This document shows, piece after piece, positions 1 through 63,002 of a stretch of 64,000 bases of DNA. The stretch covers positions 47,108-111,107 of the forward strand of contig JAENRP010000132.1 in the NCBI GenBank assembly GCA_024741835.1, written 5' to 3'. Under the pieces are notes generated by a model, which was not told where the DNA came from, did no database searches, and saw nothing but the letters and a program-made list of their open reading frames with translations. Position 1 is the stretch's first letter. Each line of letters starts with the position of its first letter. The translations under genes were made by a program, and so were the position numbers. This stretch comes from Diplocarpon mali. Lineage: Eukaryota; Ascomycota; Leotiomycetes; Helotiales; Drepanopezizaceae.

Positions 1-1721
1 GCTTCTATTATTAATAGGTTGGATTTACATATCCTTAAAGAGACAAAGAATTGATTATTAAAGTAGATTAGAAAAAGATTAATATCTTTTACTATATAAA
101 GAAGTTTAAGGTATTTAATGATTTTATTAATATTAAATCCTTTATAATTAAGACTATAGTAAATTGAAAGAGAGCAAATATAAAGGTTGCAAAGTCTTCT
201 TCCTTTGATTCCTACACTAGGAAGATACTATCGAAAGCAAGTTTTTATTACAAAGGATATTTAAATATTATATTATTCTTTAAGTTCAAGGTTGAGAATA
301 ACCGATTAAGGCATATTACTATAATTACAAATATTCTAATTAATAGATTCCTCTTTACGTTCTCTTTTTTATAAGATAAAATAATCCCGCTTGGCATTTA
401 AGAGACTAGGTTCTTAACTTTTATAATTATTAAAGAATTGAATAATATCTATAAGGGCAAACTTATCTAAAATAAGCTATTAAATCTATCTAATAGCTCT
501 TCTAATTGTCTTTAGAATAGGAGGAATAGGGTCTTCCCTTATATTATCATTTTTAAATTGGTTGTATATAAATATAAAGAAGTTAAGAACTAGCTCCTTT
601 AAGTTATTAAAGAAAGAGTCTAAATAAGTGCGCAATCCTTTGGTTTTAAATTGCAAATTAGCTAAGGTAGCTATTAAACGATCTATCCTTTTTAAAGGTT
701 AAGTTAAAATTGGTCGTTTAGCTAGAGGAAAGTCCTTTAAAGATTCTGAAAATTCTAAAGAGGCTATATTAAGCGTTTGAGCAGTCTGTTTAGTAGCGGT
801 TTTTAGAATTATTTTAATAAGAGGTAGGTTAAGTCCAGTTTTAAAATTCTCGTTTTTAATTCCTAGTCTAGGACCGCGAGTCAAATTATATAGTTTAGCG
901 CTTATTATATCTTTAGGCTAAGAGGCGAATTTCAAGGTAGGCTTAACTATAAATAACCAATTCTCTTCTTTATTATTAAAGAAATCTTATTTAAACTCTA
1001 GCATAAGAGTCCAGTTTTCTTTTAAAATAAGTAAACTATAAGTAAAAGCGCAGAGCCTTAGCATATTAATAATAGTACTATTAGGTAAGGTAATATCTAT
1101 AGCTTAATTTGATCTTTTTATAGCTTTATCAGCTGCTATAAGTACTATATTAGATAGGCCTATAAATCTGCGATTGCAAATTCGATTGCCTTAGAATTTT
1201 ACTACTCCTTTTTAAATAATAAAGAAATTGAGAATTTGAATAGCTTTAGCTATAGGAGTATTTTCCTTAAGAATTTTTAATAATACTCGCCTTCTATTAT
1301 TAGAATTAATATTTATTAGGAAATGTAAACGAAATAGGAGTCCTCTCTTATTAGTGGCTAAATTATCTAATTGTCGAATAGATTCTTCCCTTTTGTCTTA
1401 GTCTATTTTAAAAGTATCGGCCAAGGTTATATATTAATCTGCATCGGCTAAGAATTCCTCTTTAGAGATTCTCTTTAGTTTTAATTCTTCGATTAAGAAG
1501 TTGTCAAATTAGAGAATTCCAAGGGCCACCTAGGTTAAAAGGTTGCTAATAGCATTTGCGTAAGCTAAAAGGAGTTTTTATTACTTTATATTTCCTAAGG
1601 CTGCATAGGTCGATTTGAAGTTCTCTAATGATGCAATAGCTCTACTATCCTAAGAGAAGTTTATAACTAGTGCTTATTTATCTTTTATTGCAATAGATAA
1701 AACCATTTATAAGTTCTTTAA
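1..1721 (-). pseudogene. extra ORF downstream of pol in E1 (unknown function, partial)
   Basis: Mirror copy of the E2 extra ORF beginning at 23519. The start would be near 1721 on the minus strand, about 300 bp after the end of pol, and the frame runs off the window at base 1. An uninterrupted stretch of 61 codons survives at 699-884 and includes the residues Thr-Arg-Gly-Pro-Arg-Leu from palindrome 859-881. I do not recognise a domain. Its presence in both E copies at the same place argues that it belongs to the element or to a unit duplicated with it. Confidence 0.6.
859..881. repeat. 23-bp palindrome, copy 1 (E1 extra ORF)
   Basis: Arms ATTCCTAGTCT and GGACCGCGAGT around A. Same site as 24359 in E2. 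Confidence 0.85.
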
Positions 1722-3556
1722 AGGCATATTACTTATAAAAGATAGAGAGTATAAATAAGAGAATTTAATAGGGTATAAGAATTAAAAGGGCATATAAGCT
1801 GCAATAGGTTTGCTATATATATATTAAGGAAATTGGACTTTTTATTTATTATTTAAGGAAAGTAATAGGAATATTATAATTAAAGGCTAATATTAAGAAT
1901 GTAAAATAAGTTAAAGTAGGCAAGAATTTAAGGTGATCCTAAAAGATCTATATCTTAAATAATAAAGGAGGCGACTTTGCTAAAAATATAAAAATAAGGA
2001 TTAGAGGAAGGTAAGATAATTAATAGGCTAGGAAATCGTTCGGTATTCCCGCTTGCGTTCTTCGGATATTTTAAGAATAATAACTTAAGGTTGCGATTAA
2101 TTAGGTATTTTAATATTCTTTACTTATAAGACTAGCTTATAGGTCAAATTGGAAAAATCTTAGTCTTTATCTAAGGGTTTAAAATTGCTTATATTACTAT
2201 CAGTTCTTATAAAAGATTCGGAGGTTATATCAATTTCTAATTCGTCTTCTAAGGGGAATAAGGTCTAGTCGCATTAATAAAAGCGCTTCAGTCGGTTAGC
2301 TGCAAAGGTTCCTTTGATATCAATTCTATTAAGTTCCTAAAGAGAATAGTATTCCTTTTCTTCCTACTCAAACTTAACCTTAAATAGACCAAGCTATTAA
2401 TAGTCAAGTTTAATATTTATAGATATATTAATACTTTTTATAATATTATAAACTAGGATAAGATTATCTTTTTAAATAGGGTATATTTTAAGTACTTTAG
2501 AAGTAGCCTATACTTCCTTAGCTTTTTCCTAATATTATTTCTTTTATAGAATAATTTCCTCTATATCTATATCTTAGAGCTTAAGTTATTAGCATCTTAT
2601 TATAAGTAAATTAGAACGGTTCCGAATTTGACTATAATCAAACAATCTTTAAATAGGCTATTAGGATTTAAAAGGGAGCTATACCTCTCTGCTATAGATA
2701 AGGAAGAATAGTATAACTCCAATCAGTTTATAGATTATCGTTTAATAAGTAAAGAGTATTTTATAAAAGCGTTTTATCTAATCCTTAAATCCTTTATAAG
2801 TAACTTTGGATAGACTATTAAGAATATTATAGTATCCTTATTCTACTACTCTATTAGCTTTCGAGTTATATACTAAGATTTGAACCCATTTGATGCTATA
2901 TTTTCATAAGAAAGCTTTAACTATTCCTTTGTTTTTAAGGCCTCTATTAATAGTTAATCTATTAAAAAGTCTATAGCGATAGATTACGTCTTTTTAAAGG
3001 AACTTTATAATAGATTTAAAGTTAGTAGATCTTAAAGGTTGTCCTTTAAGTTATCCTAATAGGTCTTCCTTTACTAAAATAAAATATATTATCCTATTCT
3101 TAATAGTTAGTACTTATATAATATTAAAGCTGACTTTATAGAAAAGGCCTAATAGCTAAGTTAAGAATAAGGGATTTTCCTTATAACTAGGTTTTCATTT
3201 CTAATAAGAGATACAACTCTTTATAAAAGCTTTATAGTCTTTAAAAGAGCCTTTCTAAAAGAATTTTCTTAAGAGTTAGTAGTAAGTGGACTTAGCTTCT
3301 TAGTAGCCAGTTTCCTTATAAATATCCTAAATAGCCTTAGCCCTTAGTTTTTCGTCGTCTAAGTAGAGTTATATAGGGAATAAGTTATCGCTCCTTTTAA
3401 ACAATCGTCTTCCTTATATTAGATAAATTAAAGCTTTAGCTTTGAATTTCTAAAAATCCTTAAGAGCAACTATCTTTAGTTATTTAAATATAATTAAAAA
3501 CTTTGCGATTTCTTTAAAGTTACTTAAGTAGTTAGGTAATAAAATTCTCTTATTTA

Positions 3557-3579
3557 ACTCGCGGGCTAAGCTTACGAGT
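3557..3579. repeat. 23-bp palindrome, copy 2 (E1 pol)
   Basis: Arms ACTCGCGGGCT and AGCTTACGAGT around A. Same site as 21661 in E2; read in the Leu-Ala-x-Leu-Ala-Arg-Glu frame. Confidence 0.85.
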
Positions 3580-5523
3580 TAAGTCCCTTTAAGGCGATAT
3601 ATTAATAAATAACCAACTTTGTTTTCTACCCACTTATTAATATCTATTTTATCTGCTTTAATCAAATTAAAGGGGTAGGGCCGAGTTCTTTTTAAAAGGC
3701 CGTTAGTAGTAGTATTTTTTATTCCTAGAATATATTTGACTTTAAAGTCTATCAGTCTTATCTAAGCAATCCATTTTATTAGCAAGGCTTTTAATAGGTC
3801 GCTTGCAGCTCTATTTAATTATTCTACTAGCACTTTAGCATTAGTTTTAAAAATGAAGTAAGTGCTATAGAGGTCGCTTCTTATCTTTTTTATTGCCTTT
3901 AGAGCGCCTTTGCATTCTTATTTAATAGTATTATACTTTATCTCTACTAGATTCTAAAGACTACTTTTAAAGTGAGCTAGATGTCTTTTCTATTAGCTAT
4001 TAGCTTATTAAAAGATAGCACCCCATTTGATTAAGCTTATATTAACTATTAGTATAATTGGCCTAGCGTCAGCTCTATAGTCTATTTTAATTAAATAAGG
4101 CGCCTTAAGCAACGCTTGCTTTAGTTGTTTTATAGCCTCTATTTAAGGTTTCTCCTATTGAAACTTAGCCCCTTTCTAAAATAAGGAGTAAATAGGTGCT
4201 GCCTTTTTAATAAAATCCTTAATCTAAATGCAATAGTATACTATAATACTAATAAACGCGCGAGCTTCTACTATATCGTCATACTTCTTCCATTTGTCGA
4301 TTTTAAGTACTTTAGCCCTTTAAGGACTTCGGCTATTAGAATTAGTAATAAAACTAACAATTTCTATTAATAGAAGATAGTATTATAACTTTGGACCAAC
4401 TGTTGCTCTTGCCCTTTCGAATTATATAAGCACCTAATCTAAGTTCTAAATATGTTCTATTATAAATCGCTATATATTAAAAAGAACTTCTTTATAGTTA
4501 TAAAATGATTTTGATCCTTTTACTCTTATATCATCTATATAAAGGAGTACAATATTAGGTATATAATCTACTAATATTTTATAGATTACTTAGACAAATT
4601 GAGCGATCGAATTTATAGCCTCTTAAGGTAATCTTATTATCTAAAGTAGCTTAAAAGGGGTTTGAATTACTATTATATCTTTCGATTTAATATTAAGAAT
4701 AAATTGGTTATATTTAAAGAAGAAGTTAATAAGAGAGCTATAGGTTAATCCTGCGAATTCATTTAAGAGCTTATCTATATTTGAAGGAACGTTGGCGTCC
4801 CTAACTATTACTCGGTTCATCTTTACTACTACTATTATTAGTTTGTAAGTTCCCTTTTCTTTTTTAGCAACTAAGAACCATTTATTCTTATAAGGGCTAT
4901 TATAGAACTTAAGAACACTTTGCTTTAGCCTATCCTTTAATATTTCGATTACCTTTTCTTAAAGAGCTTTAAGAACCTTGAATATTTTCTCTTATTAGGC
5001 TTTATAAGGTATTATCTTAATTTTAATATAAGGCGTGACCTCTTTTTAAATCTGGCTAAGTTCCGTCTAGTTAAAAGCTAAGGCGTCCTCTTGATTTATT
5101 AAGGTTTTATAAAGTAGTTCGCATTCTTATTCTATTAAATTATCTCCAATTTTTAGTATATTAAAATATTCTTTTATTAGCTAATATCTAATGGATTTAT
5201 TAGAAAATCTACTTATAATAAACTTGTCGAATTTGCCACCCGGCTTCGAAGGTCGAAGCTTCTTATCTTATTTAAACTAATCATTTAATCCTTTAGGCTT
5301 TAAGCTATTAGAGATTCCCTAATCTACTAGTTGTACTTTGTCAGCCTTGCTTTTATATATAGTTCGAATATTAGCTAGTACTATGCTTCTCTACTTCTTT
5401 CCTTTTTTATCAAATCCTATAAAACGGTCCGAATTTTCCTTTTTAAAAATAAATAAAAGATTTTCTAAATTATTAATTTGAAGTGCGTAAATGGAAATGT
5501 TATTAGTAATTTTATTGTTTTTC

Positions 5524-5546
5524 ACTTGCGGGTCTAGCCTATAAGT
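5524..5546. repeat. 23-bp palindrome, copy 3 (E1 pol)
   Basis: Arms ACTTGCGGGTC and AGCCTATAAGT around T. Same site as 19694 in E2. Confidence 0.82.
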
Positions 5547-5685
5547 GGTTTTTAAGTTTTTTAAAATAATTAGTAAATTGTTGAAATTTGTAAAATAAAC
5601 TCTCTTCTCTACCTTATTTTTCTTTTTTCTTAATTGTTAAGCCGATAAAACGCTAATTATACTATTTTTTAAAATTCTAGATTTA

Positions 5686-5708
5686 ACTCCTAGTTTAAGA
5701 CTGCGAGT
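5686..5708. repeat. 23-bp palindrome, copy 4 (E1 pol)
   Basis: Arms ACTCCTAGTTT and AGACTGCGAGT around A. Same site as 19532 in E2. Confidence 0.8.
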
Positions 5709-7601
5709 CAAATTACTATTATTTAAAATCGGCAAACTTACCTTTCTTTTGCTATAACTCCTCGCTAAGTGCCTTCCTTTACTAGTATTAAGCTTAGCCC
5801 TTATGCTAACTAATCATTTCCTAAAACCTTATTCTAGAATTCGGCTATATCTTTTGCAATAATCATTTATCCTTTTAAAGATCGATCTGTATTTTAAAGA
5901 CTAGCTTTTATAAGACTATCTTTAGGATAGTTAAATATTAGCTAAGATTTTAAAATAAAGGGCATTTTTAAAAGAATATCATTTGAAGAATTCTCTATTA
6001 TTAGAAAGTTAATATAATTAACAATTCCTCTGACTTTAACCTTTATATTTTTTACCTATCTATTAAAATTGTATTTTAATCTAGAGATAGTCAAATAAAT
6101 AAGGAGTCGATTGCTAATAATTATCAATTGAGCTATTTCTACTACTTTTCTAATTATTATATTAACTTCTAAACTATAATCGATCAAAGCCTTTACTTTA
6201 ACTGATTCTTCTATTAAATAAATAATAATAGGGCTTTTTATTACAATTGCTAAATAATTTCGATTGATATTCTAAGATATTAAAGCTATTGCTATAATAT
6301 TATAATACCTTTAAGTTCTTTCGTTTTCTATAATCTAAAGACATTTAATTAAGGCTAAGTGCTTTTTAAAGTTCTTTTATATTACAATTTCCATTTCCTT
6401 ATTATTATTCAAATCTTTAAAGGTAATTAAGATATGCTTTCTTAGCACTTTATCAAAGCGTTTAATTAAACTAAATAGGTCTTTAAACGTAAGGTTAATT
6501 TGCTAAGCTATAATATTCTCTATAGCTTTCTCTATTGCGGTTAAACTAGCGTATTTATTAATGAATTTTTCCTATTTTAATATCTATCTCTTTCGCTTAA
6601 GGTTAAGGGTCTATGCAATAACTTTAACTTCTTAATCTTTAAGCTTAGAGCTATCTTTATCTATTATATCTCTGATCAATTTGTCTACTATATTGGCTTT
6701 ATCCTTATCTATTGTAGTTCTAGATTATTAGGTATCTTTTAGCATTTGGACTCTATATTAAGATTCCTAAGTTGCATATATTGATTTTTAGACTTTGGCT
6801 AGTTTTATTAGTATTAAGGGAGTGGTAGATCTAAAAGGACGCTAAGTATTTTAAGGGTTTTTAAATATAGAAGTAGTATTAATATTAGCAGATACGTTAT
6901 TATTAACCTATCTTAAGATAGAGATGCCTTTAACTTCTATAGCTATTTGATTAGAAGCTAGGTCCTTAAGAACTCCCTTAAGTAGGTTGCTAGTTGGACT
7001 AGTATATATATAAGTTGGAATTTTAGCGTTTATATCTATAATACGCTATCGTTCGACTAAATTCTCATCCTATTTTATACTATATATCATTATTCAAATA
7101 GTCTATAACTATAAGCGATTCTAGTGCTTTTTAATAGGGATAGCTTTTAGCCTAGGATCTTTAATATAAAGCATCTTATACTTATTAATATATATGACCC
7201 TAGTATTAATAAAACAATGGAAAAGAGGGCAATTGTTACAATACTTATATAAAGTGTAATTGGGTTCTTTATTATTGCAAAAGTTGTAGGTTAGTCGTCT
7301 TCTATTGCTATTCCCTTAGTACTTTATAGCATTAATATTGGTAGAGTGCTAGTTGGGATTAATTTCTCTTTCTTTAATTAACTATTGAGTTCTTATATTA
7401 GCTAGTTGTTCCGAATAATAAGAAGCAAGAGTCTGGTAATAGGAACTACTGTATTAGCTTATAGTAGCTGAGTTTTGCCTATTATTAAATTAGAGAATAT
7501 GCTATTTTTCTTATAAGAGATTATTAATCCTAATTTCTAAGCTTTAGATTTAGAATTCTATAAATTAGGTCTTAAGTTCCTTAATTCTAGGGTTGGATCT
7601 T

Positions 7602-7624
7602 ACTCTTAGGTTAGGACCGCAAGT
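7602..7624. repeat. 23-bp palindrome, copy 5 (E1 gag)
   Basis: Arms ACTCTTAGGTT and GGACCGCAAGT around A. Same site as 17616 (E2), 36341 (C') and 40958 (C). Confidence 0.85.
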
Positions 7625-8610
7625 AAAGGGTATAACTACTAGGTTCTTCTTTGCCTCCTCTATGACTTTTAAAGCCTTTGAGTATTCTTAGACTAGGCTT
7701 TTGAGGTCTTTAGTATAGGAGGGAGTGGGGGCTTTTTCCTACTCTATAGTATTAATAGTTCTCTTACTAAGATCTGATTTTAAAGCAAAGGCTGCGAATT
7801 CTTCAAATAAGGCAAAGGTTATAAGGTCTTGCTTATTGATCTTAAAATGCTTGATGATCTTATTTTAAAGGCTAATAGGTAATTTAAGTAAGAAAAGGCG
7901 GCCTCTTTCAACTTCGCTAAGTATTTTCTAGCTGATTAAGGTATTTAATATATAAGTAAAAGTCCGATAATAGTTCTTAAGTTCCTTAGGAGTATAAGTG
8001 ATTAAAATAAATTCCTTTAAGAAAGCTAAGGTATCGCAAATCTGCTATCTATTAAATTTGCGAAATTCAGATTTAAGGACCTTAATAAGGAGTTCCTATA
8101 AATTATAAGTTTTCTATTTAGGAAGGGACTTAATAATATCCTTGCTTATATAATTATAGTAGTAAGGAAGTTAAGAAATTATATCCTTTTATATAATATT
8201 AAAATTGTAATAAGTTTCTTTATATTACTTAAGGAAATTAGTAATATTGGCGCCTATAAAGTAAGGAGCGCTAAGGGAACTAAGGAGGGGAAAGTGACTA
8301 GTAATAGCCTTAAATGCGGCTATTATCATTTTATACTAACTATCTAAGTTGATAGAATCTATAAGGGGTAAAGGAGAAGCTTTGATATTACGAGATTGAT
8401 TGCTAAGAGGAGTACTTTAAAATTCAAAAGGGCTTAAAGAATATTTAGAATTTGAGTTAATCTTAAAGTGATTAAGACGAGTTTAAAAAGATTTAAACAA
8501 AGGGTTAGTGAAAAGTTTAAAATTATTATTATTTTTAATATTTTCTAATATTAATATTAAAAAAGTAGGTAGTAGTCTTAAGTTGTTTAAGGACGTCTTT
8601 TTATCCTCTT

Positions 8611-8633
8611 ACTTATAAGCTAAGCCTAAGAGT
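8611..8633. repeat. 23-bp palindrome, copy 6 (E1, 5' part of gag)
   Basis: Arms ACTTATAAGCT and AGCCTAAGAGT around A. Same site as 16607 (E2), 37332 (C') and 39982 (C). Confidence 0.8.
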
Positions 8634-9304
8634 AGAATTCCGGATTCTACTAAAAGTTTAATTTAAGTTTGCTAAAAGATTTTAAGTAAGTATTAAATAG
8701 CTAATAAGAGCGTTGCAACTAATTGCAATAAGATAAGGTTTACTTAATTAAGGACTAATTTCTAAAATAAGGTTTATATTTAAGATTCTTCTTAGCCTTT
8801 AGGCCAATTCCTATTAGTCCTTAGAATAAAGGGGTCTCTAAAGACGATTCTAAGGCAATTCTTAAAGTTCTATTTAGCTAAGGCGGCTGAATTATCAGAT
8901 TCGGATTTCTAAAGATTCTAAAGAGGCACTTTTAGTTAGAGTTTGCGCTTGGTATTACTTAAGTACTTAAAACCACTACTATTTGAGATTGCTATTATAA
9001 GGTTTATTAAACTTTTCATATTAAGAAGCTGAAAATTCCGAAAATCTCAAAGTTAAGAAAGAAAATAAGGGTTTTTAAAGCAAAGCTAAAAAGGGAAAAT
9101 CTAAAGTTATTAATAGTTGCTAAACGAAAATCGATAGTTCTAAGTAACTAAGCGATTAAGGATAAGGTTTTAAAGTTAATTAAAATGCTATAAGTGTTTC
9201 GAAGACGTATTTCAAAGGCCGGTCTCTTATTTATAAACCAAGAGATCGATAAGGTCGTATAAGGACGGAAATCTTAAGAAATTAGTCCTTACGTAGGTTA
9301 TTAA

Positions 9305-9549
9305 TATAAATCTAAAGGGAGATAATATAAGAATAGGCCTAAGGGAAGACTTAAAAACAAGAGGAGGAAGCACTATAAGCAGGCTCTCTTAGATAAGATA
9401 TTAGGAATAAGTCCTAAGTATAAAGTATATTTAATACTATAGCAATATATGCTATTTCTATATATAGAAGATGGCCCTTTTATCCTCTTACTATCCTACG
9501 TCGATTATGTGATATATGTCATAAGACCTATCTATCTTAGGTCTCCATA
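9305..9549 (-). repeat. 5' LTR of E1
   Basis: This 245-bp LTR matches the E2 LTR at 15686-15930 in inverted orientation, with the same length. Its outer edge reads as a RIP-altered TGTAGAGACC (seen as GGTCTCCATA on the plus strand). The inner part from the AGAGAGCC(T/C)GCTTATAGTGC segment onward is shared with the LTRs of C and C', whereas the outer U3-like part is different. The sequence following it in element sense resembles TTAGTAACC, a worn TTGGTGACC-like primer-binding site. Confidence 0.85.
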
Positions 9550-9737
9550 TTATATAATATTATATAAACAGGCAAAGAGCTTAGAGCTGCTTATATATAT
9601 AAGGGAAAAGGGCTCTCCTATAAGGAGGGCTCTTTAACTTCTTCGTTTCTTTCGTATTAGACCTATAGAATACGCCTTTTATACTACTTCTTACTACTAT
9701 ACTTAATCTTGCACTTTAGTAGTTTTGTATTATTATA
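9550..9737 (+). promoter_or_regulatory. 5' LTR remnant of F with TATA-like box
   Basis: The stretch ATATATATAAGGG around 9592-9605 looks like a TATA box. About 30-40 bp downstream, near 9636, starts the segment complementary to the putative primer-binding site, as expected for the start of R. The LTR end is placed at 9737, where TATA (worn TACA) precedes the primer-binding site. The U3 left border is not defined. Confidence 0.5.
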
Positions 9738-11900: not shown

Positions 11901-11929
11901 TAAGCCTGCGAAAGTACGACTTATTAAAG

Positions 11930-14900: not shown

Positions 14901-15685
14901 TAGACCGAGGCCCCTAATTCATCTCCTTATTTTAAAGAGAGTTCTATTATATTATCAGTATTAAGATCAAACTCTTTATAGCATATTATAAGGAGACTAA
15001 CGGCTAAACGGAGATTATAAATAAGTATATTAATTTAAGGTTACGGCCTTTTATTAATTACTATTAAGATAATTAGAATGAATTGATTCTATTAATAGAT
15101 TATGTATAATCGATTCTCTTTTATACTTCGATTAGTATAACCTTATATTAGCTTAAGTATAGAGTTGCGCCTTAGATAAGTTAGGACTGGATCTTTTTAA
15201 AACTGTCCAGCTTATAGGAAAGATTAAACTAAGCAAAGGCTAGGCTAGTAGTAGAAAGGATGCACTTAGCTTAGGAGGTAGCGAAAGGCAATATGGAATG
15301 CGCTTAGGAGAAAATGCGGAAGTCTATAAATCAATACTAAAGGGAGATTGATTAGAAACCTAAAGATATAGTCTACTTTTTAATAAAAAATCTTAAGAAC
15401 TACCGCTTTAATAGGAAACTGGCCAATTAATAGGATAGCCCTTTTAAGGTTCTTAAGAAGGTAGGCAATTTATATTAAATCAAGCTGCCTATAGGTTTTA
15501 TAATATATAATATCTTTATACTAAAGCTACTATTTAAAGATCCGCAGAACCCTTTGCTAAGTTAGGAATAACCCTGGCCTATTATAAAAAAGATCGCTAA
15601 GTAAGAAGAGTATAAAGTGTTTAAGATACTAAGTATACGCCTATCTTAAGGGAACTTAGAGTACTAGGTCAAATGGATTAGTTAT
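11930..15685 (+). pseudogene. pol remnant of F (protease, RT, RNase H, integrase, partial chromodomain)
   Basis: Protease shows Leu-Val-Asp-Thr-Lys near 12010, a worn D-T-G. Reverse transcriptase begins near 12900, with Ile-Asp-Tyr-Arg-Lys-Leu-Asn at about 13060 and the worn Y-L-D-D box (Tyr-Leu-Asn-Asn-Ile-Leu-Ile) near 13345-13385. RNase H spans roughly 13780-14170 and integrase 14440-15200. A chromodomain begins near 15610 (Glu-Tyr-Lys-Val, Leu-Glu-Tyr, Val-Lys-Trp) and is cut at 15685 by E2. Stops fall mostly at Trp and Gln positions. This order defines a fungal chromovirus. Confidence 0.87.
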
Positions 15686-15930
15686 TATAAAGACCTGAGA
15701 TGGATAGGTCTTGTGATATATATCATATGATCGGCGTAAGATAGTAGGAGGATAAAAGGGCCATCTTCTATATATAGAGATAGCGCGTGTTGCTATAGTA
15801 CTAAATATACCTTATACTTAGGACTTGTTCCTAATATCTTATCTAAGAGAGCCCGCTTATGGTGCTTCCTCCTCTTGTTTTTAGGTCTTCCCTTAGGCCT
15901 ATTCTTATATTATTCCTACTCTATCTTATA
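15686..15930 (+). repeat. 5' LTR of E2
   Basis: A 245-bp LTR, same length as the E1 copy at 9305-9549. It starts TATAAAGACCTG, a RIP-altered TGTAGAGACCTG as in C, and ends CTTATA (worn CTTACA). It is followed by TTAGTAACC, where C has TTAGTGACC, a candidate worn tRNA-type primer-binding site. Confidence 0.87.
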
Positions 15931-16606
15931 TTAGTAACCTATACAAGGACGATTTCTTAAGATTTCCGTCCTTATACGACCTTATTAATCTCTTAGTTTA
16001 TAGACAAGAGATCGGCCTTTCGAAAAATACATCTTCGAAGCACTTATAGCATTTTAATCAACTTTAAAAATCTTATCTTTAAATCGCTTAATTACTTAAA
16101 ACTATCGATTTTCGTTTAATAACTATTAACAACCTTAGATTTTCCCTTTTCGGCTTTACTTTAAAAAACCCTTATTTTCTTCTTTAACTTTAAGATTTTC
16201 GGAATTTTCGGCTTCTTAGTATGAAAAGTTTAGCAAACCCTATAATAGCAATCTCAAATAGCAGTAGTTTCAAGTACTTAAGTAATACTAAGCGTAAACT
16301 CTAATTGGAAGTGCCTCTTTAGAATCTTTAGAAATCCAAATCTAATAATTTAGCCGCCTTAGCTTAATAGAACTTTAAAAATTGCCTTAGAATCGTCTTT
16401 AAAGACCCCTTTATTCTAAGGACTAATAGGAATTAGCTTAAAGGCTAAGAAGAATCTTAGATATAAACCTTATCTTAGAAATTAGTCTTTAATTAAGTAA
16501 ACCTTATCTTATTACAATTAGTTGCAACGCTCTTATTAGCTATTTAATACTTACTTAAAATCTTTTAACAAACTTAGATTAAACTTTTAATAGAATCTGG
16601 AATTCT

Positions 16607-16629
16607 ACTCCTAATCCCGGCCTATAAGT
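16607..16629. repeat. 23-bp palindrome, copy 7 (E2, 5' part of gag)
   Basis: Arms ACTCCTAATCC and GGCCTATAAGT around C. Confidence 0.82.
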
Positions 16630-17615
16630 AAAAGGATAAAAAGACGTTTTTAAATAACTTAAGACTACTACCTACTTTTTTAATATTAATATTAGAAAAT
16701 ACTAAAAATAATAATAATTTTAAACTTTTCACTAACCCTTTATTTAAATCTTTTCAAACTCGTCCTAGTCACTTTAAGATTGACTTAGATTTTAAATATT
16801 CTTTAAGCCCTTTTAAATTTCGAAGTACTCCTTTTAATAATCAATCTTATAATATCAAAGCTTCCCCTTTACCCTTTATAGATTCTATTAACCTAAACGG
16901 TTAATATAAAACGATAATAGCCGCATTTAAGGCTATTACTAATCACTTTCTCCTCCTTAATTCCCTTAGCGCTCCTTACTTTATAAGCGCTAATATTACT
17001 GATTTCTTTAAGCAATATAAGGAAACTTATTATAATTTTAGTATTATATAAGAGGATATGATTTCTTAACTTCCTTACTATTAAAATTATATAAGTAAAG
17101 ATATTATCAAATCCCTCTTTAAATAGAAAACGCATAATTTATAGGAACTCCTTATTAAAGCTCTTAAGTCTGAATTCTAAAAATTTGATAGATAGTAGAT
17201 TCGCAATACTTTGGCTTTCTTAAAGGAATTTATTTTAATTACTTATACTTCTAAGGAACTTAAGAACTACTATCGGACTTTTACTTATATATTAAATATC
17301 TTAATTAACTAGAAAATACTTAGCAAAGTTAAAAGAGGCCGCCTTTTCTTACTTAGATTACCTATTAGCCTTCGAAATAAGATTATTAAGTATTTTAAAA
17401 TTAATAAGTAAGACCTTATAAACTTTGCCTTATTTGAGGAATTCTCAGCCTTTGCTTTAAAATCAGATCTTAGTAAAAGAACTATTAATGCTATAGAGTA
17501 GGAAAAAGCCCTTACTCCCTCTTATACTAAAGACCTTAAGAGCCTGGTCTAAGAATACTCGAAAGCTCTGGAAGTTATAAAGGAGGCAAAGAAGAACTTA
17601 ATAGTTATACCTTTC

Positions 17616-17638
17616 ACTCGCAAGCCTAACCTAAGAGT
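17616..17638. repeat. 23-bp palindrome, copy 8 (E2 gag)
   Basis: Arms ACTCGCAAGCC and AACCTAAGAGT around T. In the gag frame it reads Thr-Arg-Lys-Pro-Asn-Leu-Arg-Val. Confidence 0.85.
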
Positions 17639-19531
17639 AAGATCTAACCTTAGAATTAAGGAACTTAAGACCTAATTTGCAAAACTCTAAATCTAAAGCT
17701 TAAAAACTAGGATTAATAATCTCTTATAGGAAAAATAGCATATTCCCTAATTTAGTAATAAGCAAAACTCAGCTATTATAAGCTAATATAGTAGTTCCTA
17801 TTATTAGACTCCTACTTCTTATTATTCGGAATAACCAGCTAATATAAGAACTTAACAGTTGATTAAAGAAGGAGAAATTAATCCTAACTAGCATTCTACT
17901 AATATTAATACTATAAGGTACTAAGGGAATAGCAATAGAAGAAGACTAACTTATAACTTTTGCAATAATAAGGAACTTAATTGCCCTTTATATAAGTATT
18001 GTAACGATTATCCTCTTTTCTATCGTTTTATTAATACTAGGGTTATATATATTAATAAGTATAAGATGCTTTATATTAAAGATCCTAGGCTAAACGCTAT
18101 CCCTATTAAAAAATACTAGAATCGTTTATAGCTATAGACTATTCGAATAATAATATATAGTATAAAGTAAGATAAGGATTTAGCTAAGCGGAAGTGTATT
18201 ATTAAAATCAACTTTAAGGTCTTAACTTATATATATATAAGTCTAGCCAGCAATCTACCTAAGGAAGTGCTTACTAACTAAACTTCGAACTAGACTGCTA
18301 CTAAAGTCAAAGGTATCTTTATTTTAAGGTAAGTTAATAATAACGTATCTGCTAATATTAATACTACTTCTATATTTAAAAACCCTTAGAATACTTAGCG
18401 TCCTTTTAGATCTACTACTCCTTTAATACTAATAAAACCAGATAAAGTCTTAAAATTAATATATGCAACTTAGGAATCTTAATATAAAGTCCAAATGCTA
18501 AAAGACATTTAATAATCTAGAACTGTAATAGATAAAGATAAAGCCGATATAGTAGACGAATTAATCAGAGATATAATAGATAAAGATAGCTCTAAGCTTA
18601 AAGATTAAGAAGTTAAAGTTATTATATAGACCCTTGACCTTAAGCGAAAGAGATAGATATTAAAATAGGAAAAATTTATTAATAAATATACTAGTTCAAC
18701 TATAATAAAGAAAGCTATAGATAATATTATAGCCTAGCAAATTAACCTTATATTTAAAGACCTATTTAGTTTAATTAAATGCTTTAATAAAGTGCTAAGA
18801 AAGCATATCCTAATTGCTTTTAAAGATTTGAATAATAATAAGGAAATGGAAATTATAATGCGAAAAAACTCCGAAAAGCACTTAGCCTTAATTAAATATC
18901 TTTAGATTATAAAAGACGAAGGAATTTAAAGGTATTATAATATTATAGTAATAGCTTTAACATTTTAGAATATTAATTGAAATTATTTAGCAATTGCAAT
19001 AAAAAGCCCTATTATTATTTGTTTTATAAAAGAATTAGTTAAAGCAAAGGCTCTAATCGATTATAGTTTAAAAGTTAATATAATAATTAGAAAAGTAGTA
19101 GAAATGGCTCAATTGATAATTATTAGCAATCGATTCCTTATTTATTCGACTATCTTTAGATCGAAATACAATTTTAATAGATAGGTGAAAAACGTAAAGG
19201 TTAGAGTTAAAGGAATCGTTAATTATATTAACTTTCTAATAATAGAAAATTCTTTAAATGATATTCTTTTAAGAATACCCTTTATTTTAAAATCTTAGCT
19301 AATATTTAACTATCTTAAAGATAGTCTTATAAAAGCTAGTCTTTAAAATATAGATCGATCTTTAAAAGGATAAATAGTTATTATAAGAGATATAGCCGAA
19401 TTTTAAAATAAGGTTTTAAGAAACGATTAGCTAATATAAGGGCTAGGCTTAATACTAATAAAGGATAGCACTTAGTAAGGAGTTATAGTAAAAGAAAGGT
19501 AAGTTTACCGATTTTAAATAATAGAGATTTG

Positions 19532-19554
19532 ACTCGCGGTCTTAGATTAAGAGT
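19532..19554. repeat. 23-bp palindrome, copy 9 (E2 pol)
   Basis: Arms ACTCGCGGTCT and AGATTAAGAGT around T. Reads Thr-Arg-Gly-Leu-Arg-Leu-Arg-Val. Confidence 0.82.
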
Positions 19555-19693
19555 CAAATCTGGAATTTTGAAAAATAGTATAATTAGCGTTTTATTAGAT
19601 TAATAATTAAGAAAAAAGAAAAATAAGGCAAAGAAGAGGGTTTGTTTTATAAATTTCAATAATTTACTAATTATCTTAAAAAACCTAAAAACC

Positions 19694-19716
19694 ACTTATA
19701 AGCTAGACCCGCAAGT
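19694..19716. repeat. 23-bp palindrome, copy 10 (E2 pol)
   Basis: Arms ACTTATAAGCT and GACCCGCAAGT around A. Reads Thr-Tyr-Lys-Leu-Asp-Pro-Gln-Val, in phase with copy 9. Confidence 0.82.
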
Positions 19717-41388: not shown

Positions 41389-41411
41389 ACTCGCGGGCCT
41401 AGCTTAAGAGT
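41389..41411. repeat. 23-bp palindrome, copy 20 (C tail)
   Basis: Arms ACTCGCGGGCC and AGCTTAAGAGT around T. Confidence 0.88.
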
Positions 41412-41459
41412 CGCGTTACCAAAGGAGGAAAAGGAGTTTTTTATTATTTTTATTCGTTT

Positions 41460-41595: not shown

Positions 41596-41750
41596 CTTTA
41601 TAACTTTAGGTACTAACCTTACTTGCACTTATTATTTTTACAAATAGGGATTAGTATTCTCGACTTGCAAGAGTCTTATATTCTTTACTAATAGTAGCAA
41701 GGGCTACTACTTAAGTTAATTAGGGTATATATAAAGATTTAGAAGTAGAG

Positions 41751-42006
41751 TGTTACGACTCGCTCTCGAGCGTACAGAAGGGCGAGAATCGAATAATCGC
41801 TGACTATATTACCTCAAGAGGTACGCTATATAATAGAGAAGAAAAGATGAAGAAGAGAGAGTCTCTAATAGAGCTCCTCCAGAATAAGTACAGGTGCTTT
41901 ACTAGCGTGCACGTGATCCAGCCACCTTGCTACCTTAGCGTGCACCTGACTTCGCGCACTTGACTTCGATACGTAATAATACCGTGCACGTGATGCGGCC
42001 GTAATA
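41751..42006 (-). repeat. 3' LTR of D
   Basis: 256 bp, starting TGTTACGACTCGC and ending GCGGCCGTAATA on the plus strand. A polypurine tract follows immediately. One of its three CACGTGAT boxes is mutated to TACGTAAT (41970-41977). Confidence 0.95.
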
Positions 42007-42024
42007 CTACCCCCCCCCTTTGAA
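42007..42024 (-). promoter_or_regulatory. Polypurine tract of D
   Basis: On the minus strand AAAGGGGGGGGGTAG abuts the 3' LTR, as expected for the second-strand primer. Confidence 0.8.
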
Positions 42025-43662: not shown

Positions 43663-43685
43663 TACTTATAGGCCGGGCCTAGGAG
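43663..43685. repeat. 23-bp palindrome, copy 22 (D pol)
   Basis: Arms ACTTATAGGCC and GGCCTAGGAGT around G. The minus-strand frame reads Thr-Pro-Arg-Pro-Gly-Leu-stop-Val. Confidence 0.88.
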
Positions 43686-43707
43686 TGGAATTGATCTGCG
43701 CTAAAGT

Positions 43708-43730
43708 CACTTATAGGCCGGGCCTAGGAG
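43708..43730. repeat. 23-bp palindrome, copy 23 (D pol)
   Basis: Identical to copy 22, starting 45 bp downstream, and in the same frame. Confidence 0.88.
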
Positions 43731-45595
43731 TGGAATCGCCTCTAGTGGCAAGTACTTCTATAGAGAGCTTATCGTTAGGTAAGAGCTGCTAGTAGTATAA
43801 AGCTCGTTTCCTAGCCTTAAGAGGGGTTAGCTCTTAGTCTTAATATAAGAGTATATTAGCTAGCATATTTGTTATGCCTATTTAATATATAATAAGGAAG
43901 TTGAAGTTAGTAAAGAACTCCGCTTAGCGAGCCTGCTAGGCTATTAAGTCCTTAGTTATTATAAAGTACTTAAGGGCTTTATAATCTATATATATATATA
44001 CTATTTTCTAGGCCCTAAGTAGCTTTGCCTTATACTAGTAGAACGATTTAAAAATCGCTAGGAGCTCTTTATTATAAATAGGGTAATTCAGCTTAGCGTT
44101 ATTTATAGTCTTCGAGAAGTATCCAATTAGGTAGTAGTTCTCGTCTTCTTAAAGTTAGGAGAGTATGCCGGCGACTACGCTGTCGGAGGCGTCGGTCTTA
44201 AGCCTTATCTACTTCTAAAGGTAATAGTAGTATAAAATCAGGGTTATTTAAAGCCTTGCGCAAAGAGCTTCTTAAGCTTCCTTATAAGCGTTATTAAAGT
44301 TAAAAGGAACGTTTTATATAAGAGCTATTAAAGGTTAGCAGATATAACTATAGCTTTGAATAAACCTTTAATAGAAGTTATAAAACCTTAAGAAGCTCTA
44401 TATACTATATATATTCTTAGCGTATTTCTATTCCTAAATGACTAAGACCTTATTAAGGTCTACCTTAATTCCGTAAACTCTAATAATAAACCTTAGGAAC
44501 CTAATCTTAGTAACCTTAAACTCGCTTTTCTTAATATCTACTTAAAGGCTATAGTATTAGAGAATTCTTAAGATCTTCTTAATATAAATCTTATAGTTAA
44601 GGGAGTTTTCTAAGTAGATTAGAATATCATTTAAGTAGGTAGAGTAGAAATCGTTAAGGTAGTTAAAGAGAATATTATTAATAAACCTTTAAAAGGTAGC
44701 AGGCCTATTTATTAGCCCGAATGGCAAAACCTTATATTTGTAGGTCCTATAACGCATGCGAAAGGTAGTTAGGTCCTTAGCGTTAGCTAATATGCGAATA
44801 TAGTAGAAGGCTTATTATATATCGATTTTTATAAAAATACAAGCTTTTAATATATATGCTATTATCTTATCGATAAGTAGAATCGGGTAGGGGTCTTTCT
44901 TTATTAAGGCGTTCAGTTTCTAGTAATCGACGCATAGCCGTAAGGAGCCATTAGCTTTTTTCATAAAGAGGATTAGGGCTGCCTAAAGGGAACTCGAAGC
45001 TTCGATAAATCCTTTATACAAGTTCTTAAGAATATAGCTCTTAACCTCTAAAAGCTATTTATTAGTAAGGCGGCAAAGGGGTTCGATTATTAAGTTATTC
45101 TCGCCTATTAGCTTGATTTTATAATCTACCCTTAGTCTAGGTTCCGACAGCTGATCAAAGGCTTAGTAACTAAAGACGTTCTTGAATTTAGTATATTAAG
45201 GTAGGAGCTTCTAATCTATTAGCTTATTATTACTCTTATACTTAGCTTATAGCGCCGAACTAAGGCTAAGGGAGCTAATTTCAGCTTGCCTAACCGATTC
45301 TTAGCAATTGATTTCTTAATCTAAATTGTAAATAGAGCTTACAAATATAAACTCTTTAAGCGCTAGTTTTTAAGTTTATATAGCTTGCTTTACCTTAATT
45401 ATAAAGCAGTAGTAAAGGGCGCTAATTGCTAAGGCTAAGATTAGGCTAATCTAATAAGCTATCTTTAAAGGAGCGTTTCTCTTTATTAGGAAAGGGAGCA
45501 GGAAGTCTAATACTTTTAGCAAGGCCTTCTTTATATAGTTCAAATCTCTTTTTAAGTCTTTAAAGAAACTGCTATCCCTAGGTTTGCAAAAGGCT

Positions 45596-45618
45596 ACTCG
45601 CAGGCTAAGCTTAGGAGT
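45596..45618. repeat. 23-bp palindrome, copy 24 (D pol)
   Basis: Arms ACTCGCAGGCT and AGCTTAGGAGT around A. The minus frame reads Thr-Pro-Lys-Leu-Ser-Leu-Arg-Val in an open stretch. Confidence 0.87.
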
Positions 45619-45640
45619 AGAATTCGAGTTTGCAGTTTTT

Positions 45641-45663
45641 ACTTGTAGGCTAGGACTAGAAGT
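45641..45663. repeat. 23-bp palindrome, copy 25 (D pol)
   Basis: Arms ACTTGTAGGCT and GGACTAGAAGT around A. The minus frame reads Thr-Ser-Ser-Pro-Ser-Leu-Gln-Val; again 45 bp from its neighbour. Confidence 0.83.
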
Positions 45664-46330
45664 AGGATTCGAATTCGCATTACTTGCTAGCACTAAGAGC
45701 TAGGCTTAGGCCATTCTTAAGTCTTTATCCTTAGCGTCTATTATAGCTGCTTAACAATCGACGTCTTACTATATTATTAAGGGTTTTATTAGCTATAAGA
45801 GATCGATTAGTATGCGTCGATTAAAGTAGGAGACAATAGGCATATCCTTAGGCTAAGAGATACTGTTTTTCCCCCTTTTATAAGACTATTTAAAGTTATA
45901 GTACTTTAAGAACTTCCTATTAATTAAAACGTCAATTGCTTTTAAGCTTATGATTAAAAAAGGGAAGTTTATTTATCGCCTATTAATTATAAAGGTAAGT
46001 AAGATAGCAAATCGAATGGTTTCTCCCTTAAGGCTATTATAGCTAATAGGGGTAATCGGTTTAAATAGTTTAATAAACTTTACCCTAAGTCTTTAAGAAA
46101 GCTAATATACTAAAGACGTCTTAATAATACTGAAAATATTAACTTTATTATTAATATAAGTAACTATTTTAATAAATAATCTATTTTAAGCTAGTTTTAT
46201 AAGAACTAAGAACTAGCAGCCGCCTATTAATAAGCAGGGATTAAAATCTAAGTCTTTTTATAAATTATAACTTATACTATAGTAGGAGTCTTTACTATAG
46301 CTTAGCAGTTTCCTAATAGTAGGTCGTTTT

Positions 46331-47618
46331 CTATCTTAACTTTAGCTATTATAAACTCGCCTTGCTTCTTTAGCTTAAGGTAATCTATTATATAATAACT
46401 AAGGGCTTTGCAATTATAGCAAAGACCAGATAATAGCTTTAAGCTGGCAGACCTTTCTTAATAAGTTACTAGTAAAGAGGAATAAGTGTAAGGAGCTAAA
46501 GAGGTAGCTATGGCTATAGGTCTTTATAACTCCCTTTTTAGTATGCCAGGGACGCGGTCCTTTAAAAGGGAGAACGCGATAGCAAGGGCGACTTATTAAG
46601 CGTTATAGGCTTCTTCTTACTTAATATTATAGGCCTTATAGTCCGCAATAGCTAAGAACTCATTTAAAGTAGTATAATTATTATTTATTTTATACTTCTT
46701 TACTTAAAGGTTATTCTTTAAAGCTAAGGAGACCTTTTTATAAATATTATCGAACTAGCGAGACTGATCGATCTTACCAGCTATAGCAAGGGTGATAAAC
46801 TTAGATCGGAACTTATTATATAATATTAAACTTATAATTAGCCTACTATATTTAAGCTTAGCGGACTAAATATAGTTATAATTAAAGAACCTTTAATCTA
46901 AGACCCTAAGGATATTAGTAGCATATATAAACTTATTAATAAAGATAGGATTTATATATTATAAGATTAAGTTTTAAGCTTTACCTATTATATACTTAAA
47001 GTAAGTAGTAATCTAATCCTCTTTTAAAATGAAGTTACTTAAGTACTTTTAAATAAATATCTTTATAGCTATCTTTTAAGTATTATAAGTAATTTTGCCT
47101 TAGTAGTTGCTAAAATAGGTTTAAAGGTACTTAATCCAATAGGGGTTAATAATAAGGACTAAAGGTCGGATGATCGGAAGGTAGTAGTCTAAGGGAGGCA
47201 GCAAGTCGGCGGTAAAGGACTGAGTATTCTAAGGGCTAGCACTTAAGAAAGAAGGGGCGATAGCATTATTTTAAAGAGCAGCAGCTATAGTAGCACTAAT
47301 AAGGTTCGCAATTTCGGCCTATTAGATAGCTGAAAAGAGAGGGGCTAATATAATAAGAGTAGATATTATTAAAGAGAGCGTATCTTTTTCCTTAACTTTA
47401 ATCGATAGTAATAGGGTATTTCGAAAATCCACTTATAAACTAGGACTAGGAGTAAAATCTATACTAAAGGAGGTTTCTTCTTAAGTAGGCTTAAGAGAGG
47501 GAAGATCTCTAGGACTAGGGTTGGTAGTAAGGCCTAGAGAACTAGTAGTAGTAAGGCCTGGTAGTAGAAGTGCAGTTAACCTTTTACTTCTCCTAAGTGG
47601 TATAAGATTAAAGGTCAT
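46331..47618 (-). pseudogene. gag remnant of D
   Basis: A start ATG lies at 47616-47618 (Met-Thr-Phe-Asn-Leu-Ile-Pro-Leu). The N-terminus holds palindrome 47431, read as Thr-Pro-Ser-Pro-Ser-Leu. A zinc knuckle near 46386-46430 reads Cys-Tyr-Asn-Cys ... Tyr ... Tyr, with the His and last Cys changed to Tyr as RIP predicts. Confidence 0.78.
47431..47453. repeat. 23-bp palindrome, copy 26 (D gag)
   Basis: Arms ACTTATAAACT and GGACTAGGAGT around A. The minus frame reads Thr-Pro-Ser-Pro-Ser-Leu-stop-Val. Confidence 0.8.
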
Positions 47619-48036
47619 AAGTACTAACTCTCTTTATATTATCTGATTTAGTCTAAAGGGACCTAATGCTAAATAGTAACCTATTTAAAAGGGGGAAGAT
47701 TAGTATAAGCAGAGCTATATACATTCTTAAAGCCTTCTAATAGAGTATATATTAAAGTATTATAAATTTATAGATCTTAAGAAAGAAGGTTTTACTTTAG
47801 AATCACGTCTCTTTACCAATTAGGAGTTATAATAAGGTTGCCTAAGGGTATAGTGCAAATCTAGGGAAGTAGGGTCTAAGGATCTAAAGCTTATTACTCT
47901 ACCAAAGTTGACCTAGTCTCTAATAGTATAGTATAACCTACTAAGGCTAACTAAGTCTCTATATGTATATATAGGTATAGGTCTCCCAGTTTCGTACTTA
48001 AGTATTGTAAAGGAAGGAGTAAGGACCTTTAAAGAG

Positions 48037-48220
48037 GTAAGGAGCTTCGAAGAGTATAAGGAAAGTTATTAATAAATATAGGTCGATAGGGAGTATAAAG
48101 AAGGTCGATGACTTATTCGCAAGGAGGGTTCTTTAAAGAGTCGGGTTATATTTAAGGGTTTCGAAGGAGTAAGGAGCTTCAAAGAGTAAAAGGAGAATTA
48201 TTAATAAGTATAGGTCGATA
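48037..48220 (-). repeat. 52-bp direct repeat in the leader of D
   Basis: 48037-48088 and 48169-48220 match at an offset of 132 bp; both begin GTAAGGAGCTTC and end AGGTCGATA. They lie in the roughly 990-bp AG-rich (plus-strand view) leader between the 5' LTR and gag. Role unknown. Confidence 0.75.
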
Positions 48221-48594
48221 TAATATAGAGTATTTATAAAGGAAGGAGAGAGTTAAAAAGAGAAAAGTTATTATACTGCTTTAGGCAGCAGCCTATGCTA
48301 GCGAAGCAAAGGTATAGTGAATAATTTTTTTTTTTTAAATTGAAATTAAAGGTGAATTTCCATTTGCAAAATAGAGTACGTAAGGGGTCGAAAAAACGAG
48401 CTGATCTTATATTCGAAGGTTGTTATTCAGCTTTCTCTAAAAACTAGATTAGTAAGATCTAAGCGTTACGTACAAGTTGCTTAAGGTAGTTTATAGTAGA
48501 AGTATTAAGATCGAGAGATCGAATTGCTTAAGGCAGTTCGAAGTGACGATTCTAAAGGGGGTAGATATTAAGCTTCTTAGCAGAGGTTGAGTTG

Positions 48595-48703
48595 ATCTTT
48601 TCTTATATTATAACTCGCTCTTAAGTATATAAAAGGGCGAGAATCGAATAATCGCTAACTATATTACCTTAAGAGGTATGCTATATAATAAAGAAGAAAA
48701 GAT
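48595..48703 (-). promoter_or_regulatory. Self-priming inverted repeat of D
   Basis: ATCTTTTCTT at 48595-48604, next to the inner LTR edge, is the exact reverse complement of AAGAAAAGAT at 48694-48703 in the LTR. Geometry and spacing match those of F and G. Confidence 0.5.
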
Positions 48704-48861
48704 AAAGAAGAGAGAGTCTCTAGTAGAGCTCCTTTAGAATAAGTACAGGTGCTTTACTAGCGTGCACGTGATCCAGCCACCTTGCTACCTTAGCGTGCAC
48801 CTGACTTCGCGCACTTGACTTCGACACGTGATAATACCGTGCACGTGATGCGGCCGTAACA
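48606..48861 (-). repeat. 5' LTR of D
   Basis: 256 bp, starting TATTATAACTCGC and ending GCGGCCGTAACA on the plus strand. The first half (plus-strand view) is RIP-worn, whereas 48741-48861 keeps CA and TG freely. Confidence 0.95.
48741..48861 (-). promoter_or_regulatory. E-box-like CACGTGAT cluster in U3 of D
   Basis: CACGTGAT occurs at 48765-48772, 48825-48832 and 48842-48849, with the related GTGCACCTGAC and GCGCACTTGAC between. The matching copies in the 3' LTR are at 41910-41917, 41970-41977 (mutated) and 41987-41994. This is U3, so a bHLH-type activator site array is a reasonable inference. Confidence 0.55.
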
Positions 48862-62267: not shown

Positions 62268-62531
62268 ATAGGAAATTAAAAAGCTAGGTTTCTTTAAAAG
62301 TTATAGCTATCCTAAGATCTATAGCTCTTACTCTCCTTTTCACTTTATATAATATAGATTAAGTAAAGTCTATATTTATATCTATATCCTTATTATCTTT
62401 ATCTTTTCTATATTAAAATAAAGTAATCTATTATAATAGATATTAAGTATTAAAGGCAGTTATTTAAAAGTATTTTACCTTTAAAGTATCCTATCTTTTC
62501 TTTATATTATTATAAATTATTAAGCTTAAGT

Positions 62532-62590
62532 AAGTCGGCGCAGTAGGTAGAAGAGGCTTCTAAAGGTCGATGGTTGATATATTAGTAAGA
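62532..62590 (+). repeat. Possible tRNA-derived (SINE-like) head
   Basis: GGCGCAGTAGGTAG fits a tRNA D-arm/A-box. CTTCTAA could be an anticodon loop with TCT (Arg), and GGTTGATAT resembles a damaged B-box. Spacing is shorter than in a normal tRNA and no acceptor stem pairs well, so this is at most a worn tRNA-derived repeat and not a functional tRNA. Confidence 0.3.
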
Positions 62591-62592
62591 GT

Positions 62593-62623
62593 TAGGGAAG
62601 GAAGGTTACCCCTTTCTTCCCTA
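62593..62623. other. Strong hairpin
   Basis: TAGGGAAGGAAGG pairs with CCTTTCTTCCCTA around the loop TTACC, 13 bp with one G-T pair. It lies just after the tRNA-like segment. Role unknown. Confidence 0.6.
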
Positions 62624-62853
62624 TAGCTATATACGTATTAATATCCTACTAATTGGGTAGTAGGGTTATATAATAATATATTAAAGTAATAGCTATATTA
62701 CCTATCTTAATACCTTTACTTAGACCTTACTCTAATTGACTTATAATTAGGAAAAAATAATAACTATCCTTTTACGCTAATCTAATTCTTAAGTATCTTT
62801 TAAAATTAAAAATAATCAATTAATAGTAACTTTTATTAAAATTACTAAACTCT

Positions 62854-62876
62854 ACTTATAAGGCGGGATTAAAAGT
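62854..62876. repeat. 23-bp palindrome, copy 27 (right tail)
   Basis: Arms ACTTATAAGGC and GGATTAAAAGT around G. Confidence 0.72.
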
Positions 62877-62918
62877 TAATTTTCCTAAAAGCGTTCCTTT
62901 TTAAGACTATATGATTTA

Positions 62919-62941
62919 ACTTACGGTCTAGGCCTAAGAGT
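62919..62941. repeat. 23-bp palindrome, copy 28 (right tail)
   Basis: Arms ACTTACGGTCT and GGCCTAAGAGT around A. Confidence 0.83.
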
Positions 62942-62979
62942 CGATTTAAAAACTTTCTTTTAAAAGATTATATAACCTA

Positions 62980-63002
62980 ACTCGTAAGGCAGGCTTAGGA
63001 GT
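62980..63002. repeat. 23-bp palindrome, copy 29 (right tail)
   Basis: Arms ACTCGTAAGGC and GGCTTAGGAGT around A. Copies 27-29 start 65 and 61 bp apart. Confidence 0.82.

Follow-up and report, generated by a model that had tools for sequence, protein, structure and literature searches.

In the genome of the fungus Diplocarpon mali a palindrome of only 23 bp is dispersed in several families of retroelements, and the question arises how such a short unit came into unrelated elements and what keeps it there. We analysed a stretch of 64,000 nucleotides in which this palindrome is frequent (contig JAENRP010000132.1 of assembly GCA_024741835.1, positions 47,108–111,107 of the forward strand; hereafter the window, to which plain coordinates refer). 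An earlier reading, made from the letters of the window alone, had described 29 copies and proposed a very small mobile or templated unit. In the following we tentatively suggest that the 23 bp unit forms the core of a DNA site with two-fold symmetry, to which a dimeric protein would bind and which was copied in short tracts between retroelements. The common reading phase of the copies, the pattern of changes tolerated by the arms, the pyrimidine two bases outside each arm and the variable number of tandem units are new here.

A palindrome of constant length

The window (positions 1–64000) contains no open reading frame of at least 150 codons and has a GC content of 0.31, and thus looks strongly altered by repeat-induced point mutation (RIP). 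For the genome-wide search a strict pattern tolerating RIP changes served as template and the reversed pattern as control. In the window the strict pattern gave 12 matches, compared with none in each of 30 dinucleotide-preserving shuffles; shuffled sequence does not reproduce the counts. A wider template, which also accepts T at position 9 and A at position 15 of the unit, found 27 exact copies and its reversed form none. With one mismatch allowed, three extra matches appeared in the window compared with five for the reversed template. Two of these, at 62854 and 62980, align with palindromes at the matching places of a less mutated copy of element H (L070), so that the total was set at 29 copies between 859 and 63002, the number and range that had been reported before. 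The third match, at 45311, is taken as a chance match and was set aside.

Across the assembly of 49.4 Mb in 676 contigs the RIP-tolerant pattern matches 2654 times, the reversed pattern six times. The unmutated form, the near-palindrome ACTCSYGGKCCNGGMCCRSGAGT, is found at 118 places and its control at none. The constant length holds genome-wide as well: the 2654 matches have a single base between the arms, whereas with no base there are five matches compared with seven in the control, and with two bases four compared with four. In the local sequence set 186 pairs of arms face each other across one base, and the other gaps between −11 and 59 bases (40, 46, 49 and 55) fit adjacent tandem units. 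A short palindromic unit of constant length at many unrelated sites is characteristic of mobile mini-palindromes of the mitochondrial GC-cluster type, and the unit shares this feature. Outside this genome the unmutated pattern has no match in the collections viral_contigs and genome_contigs (prokaryote), which says little as neither is a collection of fungal genomes.

Host elements and distinct sites

Self-comparison of 264 kb, that is the window and three further stretches, resolved a set of nested long terminal repeat (LTR) elements. Element E (15.7 kb, 248 bp LTRs) is assigned to Ty3/gypsy by its RNase H and integrase H2C2 domains; element D (7.1–7.2 kb) has the same two domains and is also Ty3/gypsy. 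The elements H (6.1 kb) and I (5.6 kb) are Ty1/copia by the RVT_2 domain. Element C is related to the 5′ part of E, and two sites (937 and 1946 in E coordinates) are common to both. These five families carry the palindrome at about 27 separate sites and in both orientations.

The window contains a left E copy (1..9558, reverse strand) and a right E copy (15677..25599, forward strand), which resumes at 33667–35357 past the nested element B. Both copies are inverted with respect to each other and 89% identical (1–9558 compared with 25239–15677), and they enclose about 6 kb without exact palindromes. The LTR element B (25606..33659, reverse strand) is related to D by protein. C and C′ (35349..41750), both related to the 5′ part of E, lie in inverted orientation on either side of a fragment of N72, a palindrome-free copia family. 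D (41758..48859, reverse strand) is 7.1 kb long with 247 bp terminal repeats, and an H fragment lies at 62500..63226 (reverse strand). N72 is 7.2 kb long and was also found inside other palindrome-bearing regions (C7:21516-28710 and C7:45260-52451; L007, L009-L010); the terminal repeats of the single copy tested agree to 96.5%. Runs of N are present in the window (35773-35839), in C7 near 36900 and in C12 near 243180, the latter two just past the last E palindrome.

In the left E copy the palindrome occupies the E sites 8688 (859..881, inside a long frame with few stops), 5991 (3557..3579, between the RNase H and H2C2 domains), 4024 (5524..5546), 3862 (5686..5708), 1946 (7602..7624) and 937 (8611..8633). 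The right copy has the same sites 937 (16607..16629), 1946 (17616..17638), 3862 (19532..19554), 4024 (19694..19716), 5991 (21661..21683) and 8688 (24359..24381), and beyond B the sites 10074 (33818..33840, here in the unmutated form) and 10959 (34703..34725). C carries a specific site (35918..35940) and the homologues of the E sites 1946 (36341..36363) and 937 (37332..37354), which correspond in C′ to 41389..41411, 40958..40980 and 39982..40004, respectively; one more copy adjoins C′ (41506..41528). In D, on the reverse strand, two units spaced 45 bp lie in the RNase H–integrase linker (43664..43686 and 43709..43731), two in the linker of protease and reverse transcriptase (RT) (45596..45618 and 45641..45663) and one in the gag region (47431..47453), the latter three being placed by eye. 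Near the 3′ end of H three copies are found on the reverse strand (62854..62876, 62919..62941 and 62980..63002), the outer two with one mismatch. The location of the copies in E, C/C′, D and the right tail is thus as claimed. The claim of many non-homologous sites is borne out too, but the 29 copies are only about 14–16 distinct sites, because E is present twice, C and C′ are inverted copies of each other and C has two sites in common with E.

Could all copies be due to chance, or descend from one ancestral element? For the copies of one site common descent is true: copies within a family share an ancestor, the E copies compared have common sites, some of them in worn form, and E and C share two. 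For the whole set both explanations are refuted and retain next to no probability, chance by the shuffled and reversed controls and single descent by the occurrence in both gypsy and copia hosts, at non-homologous positions and in either orientation. The hosts are indeed unrelated, as had been proposed.

When 40 further loci were inspected, all 40 belonged to D, E, H or I; these loci are the first listed places in contig order and not a random sample, 34 of them being from the unmutated list. The high copy number can thus be ascribed to these families transposing in the ordinary way. Copying of short tracts is required solely to explain how several families came to have about 27 sites. The earlier proposal of a mobile or templated unit is partly supported; general mobility in the genome is not supported by the 40 loci. 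In addition, among the matches listed, which end within C7, none lies in C2 or C5 and none between C1:66 and C1:394936, which is odd for a freely mobile unit. Stretches of this kind are probably gene-rich. A brief look for a link between the palindromes and the insertion points of other elements gave nothing clear.

Symmetry of the unit

Two types of arms occur, as noted before, namely ACTCCYGGKCC (C-type) and ACTCGYGGKCC (G-type), and they are usually combined: of the 118 unmutated copies 108 pair the two types, eight have two G-type arms and two, at places outside the loci inspected, have two C-type arms. The variable positions were identified by freeing each position in turn, which gave 184–195 local matches; these copies are not independent and had to fit at the other 22 positions. 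Nearly all changes at the freed positions are C/T or G/A, that is of the RIP type. Real variation is found at positions 5/19 (C or G), at positions 9/15 (G or T, and C or A) and at the central position 12. This variation is mirrored between the arms, both arms tolerating the same few changes. In the matches examined, position 3 is only T or C, position 21 only A or G, position 9 is never C, and position 15 never G or T.

The conservation extends further than the unit itself: of 147 matches, 146 have C or T at position −2. When the sites were reduced to 27 representatives, counting only the first unit of each array and omitting the E site near 7430, a pyrimidine was present two bases outside the arm in all 54 half-sites. 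Further outward a weaker preference for T, T/A, A and A/G is seen, and therefore the full site may span 27–35 bp. The representatives were used for the tests of covariation and direct repeats, and 25 of them (without two C sites) for the tests of reading frames and of the edges of the 23 bp unit.

A palindrome in a retroelement could also act as RNA, for example as a hairpin or dimerisation signal for packaging of the element's RNA. Of five copies folded, three gave strong z-scores (−3.7, −3.5 and −3.2), and positions 9/15 are complementary in 22 of the 27 sites. On the other side, two copies fold weakly (−1.8 and −0.5), positions 5/19 are complementary in only seven of the 27 sites and mispaired in the 108 unmutated copies with unlike arms, and between the left and right flanks no significant covariation was found at 12 positions. 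As the results of pairing and folding are mixed and mostly negative, we regard an RNA structure as quite improbable. The lack of flank covariation and the rarely complementary positions 5/19 rather suggest that the half-sites are read separately. We count this mirrored variation for a DNA site, together with the fixed gap of one base, the pyrimidine at position −2, the confinement to LTR elements and the variable arrays.

Reading frames and tandem arrays

The palindromes are frequently found within reading frames. Stop codons were counted in three frames around the 25 sites using the least mutated copies; frames in RIP-mutated DNA are here deduced from stop density, and sites within one frame are not fully independent. 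At 18 of the 25 sites one frame is clearly more open, and in 17 of these 18 ACT is read as a codon, the sole exception being E 5991. The common phase encodes the peptide T-P/R-x-P-G-P-R/G-V or close variants, in either orientation (T-x-x-P-G-P-x-V). Within the frame of E that follows pol all seven sites from 8688 to 14841 have ACT in phase, with a frame that is not clearly open near 10074 and a weak assignment at 14841 (three stops compared with five). This frame, low in stops over about 7 kb downstream of pol, is seen in L085 and L086 (C12:234000-243500) as well as in the window copies, and Pfam scans of it gave no domain match. At seven of the 25 sites no frame is clearly open; these include the three in H, which are spaced 61–66 bp, and one close to the 3′ end of I.

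Several of the coding sites are located between domains. In D they lie in the protease–RT linker and in the RNase H–integrase linker, in I the array lies between the RT and an SH3-like match just under the cut-off, and E 5991 has the interdomain position mentioned above. By its in-frame presence within unrelated gypsy and copia frames the unit resembles the palindromic elements of Rickettsia (RPE). The number of tandem units varies, from two to four in the protease–RT linker of D and from one to four in its RNase H–integrase linker. The spacings in the coding arrays (39, 45, 48 and 54 bp) are all multiples of three, which corresponds to units of 13–18 codons with a core peptide, TPGPGPRV, of eight residues. 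In L042 (391-402) the end of the protease–RT array of D adjoins ACTCCCGTGGCC, an incomplete half-site, perhaps the worn remnant of the edge of an earlier unit.

These observations raise the alternative that the peptide T-P-G-P-G-P-R-V is what is kept, as a spacer or a processing site of the protease, and that the palindrome results incidentally from the codons used for it. The single phase of 17 of the 18 coding sites and the domain boundaries at several of them are in line with this. In addition, the common phase places positions 6, 9, 12, 15 and 18 third in their codons, and the arm pair that would encode no arginine is rare (two of the 118). However, third positions are restricted, as the bases excluded at positions 3, 9, 15 and 21 demonstrate, E 5991 is read in another phase, and seven sites have no clearly open frame. 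Moreover, cleavage sites would hardly be expected in arrays of as many as about eight units. The peptide alone as the conserved object is thus disfavoured by the restricted third positions, the non-coding copies and the copy in the other phase, and we consider it improbable.

Insertion or selection

The second explanation of weight is a selfish mini-palindrome of about 27 bp, which would copy itself into retroelements and be tolerated only in linkers and untranslated parts. Template switching during reverse transcription, or a nuclease followed by repair, could be its route, and it would resemble the mitochondrial GC clusters or the coding palindromes of Rickettsia, but be nuclear. The presence of about 27 sites in both gypsy and copia elements, and in either orientation, agrees with such a unit, as does the in-frame placement in linkers. 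When D is aligned with B, a distant relative without the palindrome, a gap stands opposite the palindrome of D.

Direct repeats give an ambiguous picture. At the edges of the 23 bp core no direct repeat of at least 2 bp was found at any of the 25 sites (1.2 expected for 2 bp and near zero for longer repeats). Around a unit of 27 bp, defined as the core with two bases on each side where the invariant bases end, direct repeats of 4 bp occur at five of the 27 sites compared with 0.66 expected, which favours insertion. The best of the 52 combinations of edge and length was matched in two of 1000 shuffles, or in 14 of 1000 when the outer flanks of the arrays were used; the shuffle ignores local composition, and two of the five repeats are homopolymers (aaaa and tttt). 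An insertion of 27 + 4 bp would also break the reading frame, although four of the five sites with repeats read as coding. Among the copies compared no pair with a filled and an empty site was seen within a family. Finally, the absence of listed matches from long stretches and of palindromes from neighbouring LTR families does not fit well to a selfish unit. We regard this explanation as possible but doubtful.

Constraint on the DNA was assessed from transversions in the palindromes and around them. In the comparison of E and C fixed transversions are present in one of 46 palindrome columns and in 35 of 489 flank columns. Between tandem units 7 of 345 comparisons within palindromes and 28 of 330 within spacers are transversions, mainly in one H array; six unit sets from five loci, a part of those available, were compared, and the pairs are not independent. 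These results on constraint weakly favour selection on the DNA.

Nevertheless, a number of observations weigh against a protein-binding DNA site. Of the other windows of 23 columns in the E–C comparison 1037 of 1729 also have no or one transversion, so that this test is not decisive, and other differences between E and C are commoner in the palindromes (21 of 46) than in the flanks (162 of 489). The D arrays tested show no transversions between units, either in the palindromes or in the spacers. In three of five copies of E site 12789 position 2 has changed from C to G, which is not a change of the RIP type. The complementarity of positions 9/15 and the 4 bp direct repeats described above count on this side as well. 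Most sites are coding, and DNA binding alone predicts no reading phase. Exact palindromes are absent from B, from N72 and from two N76 elements, which all lie beside host families. In the frames scanned with Pfam only reverse transcriptase, RNase H, integrase, gag and SH3-like domains were found and no candidate for the binding protein. Taking all these points together we place the DNA site narrowly ahead of the selfish mini-palindrome.

A possible mechanism

For the DNA site we infer a copying step, a protein and a benefit to the elements, which might be connected in the following way. A putative sequence-specific dimer would bind a site of 27–35 bp, composed of the half-site RAWTYN-ACTC-S-YGG-K-CC on both sides of one free base, and would help the LTR retrotransposons, for example by activation or by protection from silencing. 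New sites would be born by short-tract copying between retroelements and could then grow or shrink as in-frame tandem repeats. Ordinary transposition would have carried them to thousands of places, with RIP scarring afterwards. The sites would persist where the sequence is free, that is in untranslated stretches and in interdomain linkers of the polyproteins, and the Pro/Gly-rich T-P-G-P-G-P-R-V that results from the one reading phase would presumably be harmless.

A more specific and rather unlikely form of this mechanism is a DNA "passport" of about 35 bp, passed horizontally between Ty1/copia and Ty3/gypsy elements, kept in-frame in linkers and read by a dedicated, possibly element-encoded, protein. 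One and the same sequence would then be a recognition site and a neutral peptide linker, and the protein would activate or protect the elements that host it.

Comparison with known systems

The palindromic elements of Rickettsia are bacterial and about 100–150 bp long. Like them, the unit is palindromic DNA placed in-frame in unrelated coding sequences, but it is much shorter (23–35 bp) and retroelement-borne. The targets of the VANC proteins, as outlined in PMC5735166, are 9 bp motifs mainly in non-coding parts of the VANDAL transposons of Arabidopsis, and their binding protein is known. According to the same outline these targets are, as is the palindrome, dispersed in one set of transposons and form tandem arrays of variable number (PMC5735166). 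In contrast, our unit is longer (23–35 bp) and palindromic, its hosts are LTR retrotransposons from two superfamilies, and 18 of its 25 sites are clearly coding. VANC-type targets are bound by a protein that the element itself encodes and that removes silencing; the Pfam scans of E gave no candidate domain for such a protein. PARCELs are described in the summary of PMC2996958 as tandem palindromic repeats that code for protein, vary in number and are in some taxa linked to mobile elements. As described there, the PARCEL repeat has 25 amphipathic residues and often occurs in membrane proteins (PMC2996958), whereas the unit encodes a linker peptide of eight residues rich in Pro and Gly, and its DNA sequence is far stricter than that outlined for PARCELs. 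Because defining features of VANC targets and of coding palindromes were looked for and not found in the unit, we assign it to neither.

Two further types of dispersed palindromes are comparable in size. The GC clusters of yeast mitochondria, for which the account in PMC4478555 gives copy-number variation between strains and a putative target duplication, are likewise short, GC-rich and dispersed; our unit is nuclear and has only a faint sign of target duplication. Miniature inverted-repeat elements (MITEs) combine terminal inverted repeats with a target duplication, and for the comparison with them the same faint 4 bp repeats around the 27 bp unit apply. The bacterial REP repeats are palindromes of 20–40 bp in high copy number as well, but extragenic and prokaryotic in the outline of PMC3733652, whereas our unit lies mostly within reading frames of retroelements. 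In one open-access library, searched by title and the start of the abstract, no earlier description of such a unit in fungal retroelements was found.

Implications

If the interpretation is true, a stretch no longer than a few dozen bases can move from one retroelement to an unrelated one within the same nucleus and can be kept there as a DNA site, as a peptide or as a parasite of parasites. Its complete definition makes the unit directly accessible to tests of binding, to reporter assays and to comparison. The palindrome would also offer a way to ask whether trans-acting factors against genome defence are shared among retroelements.

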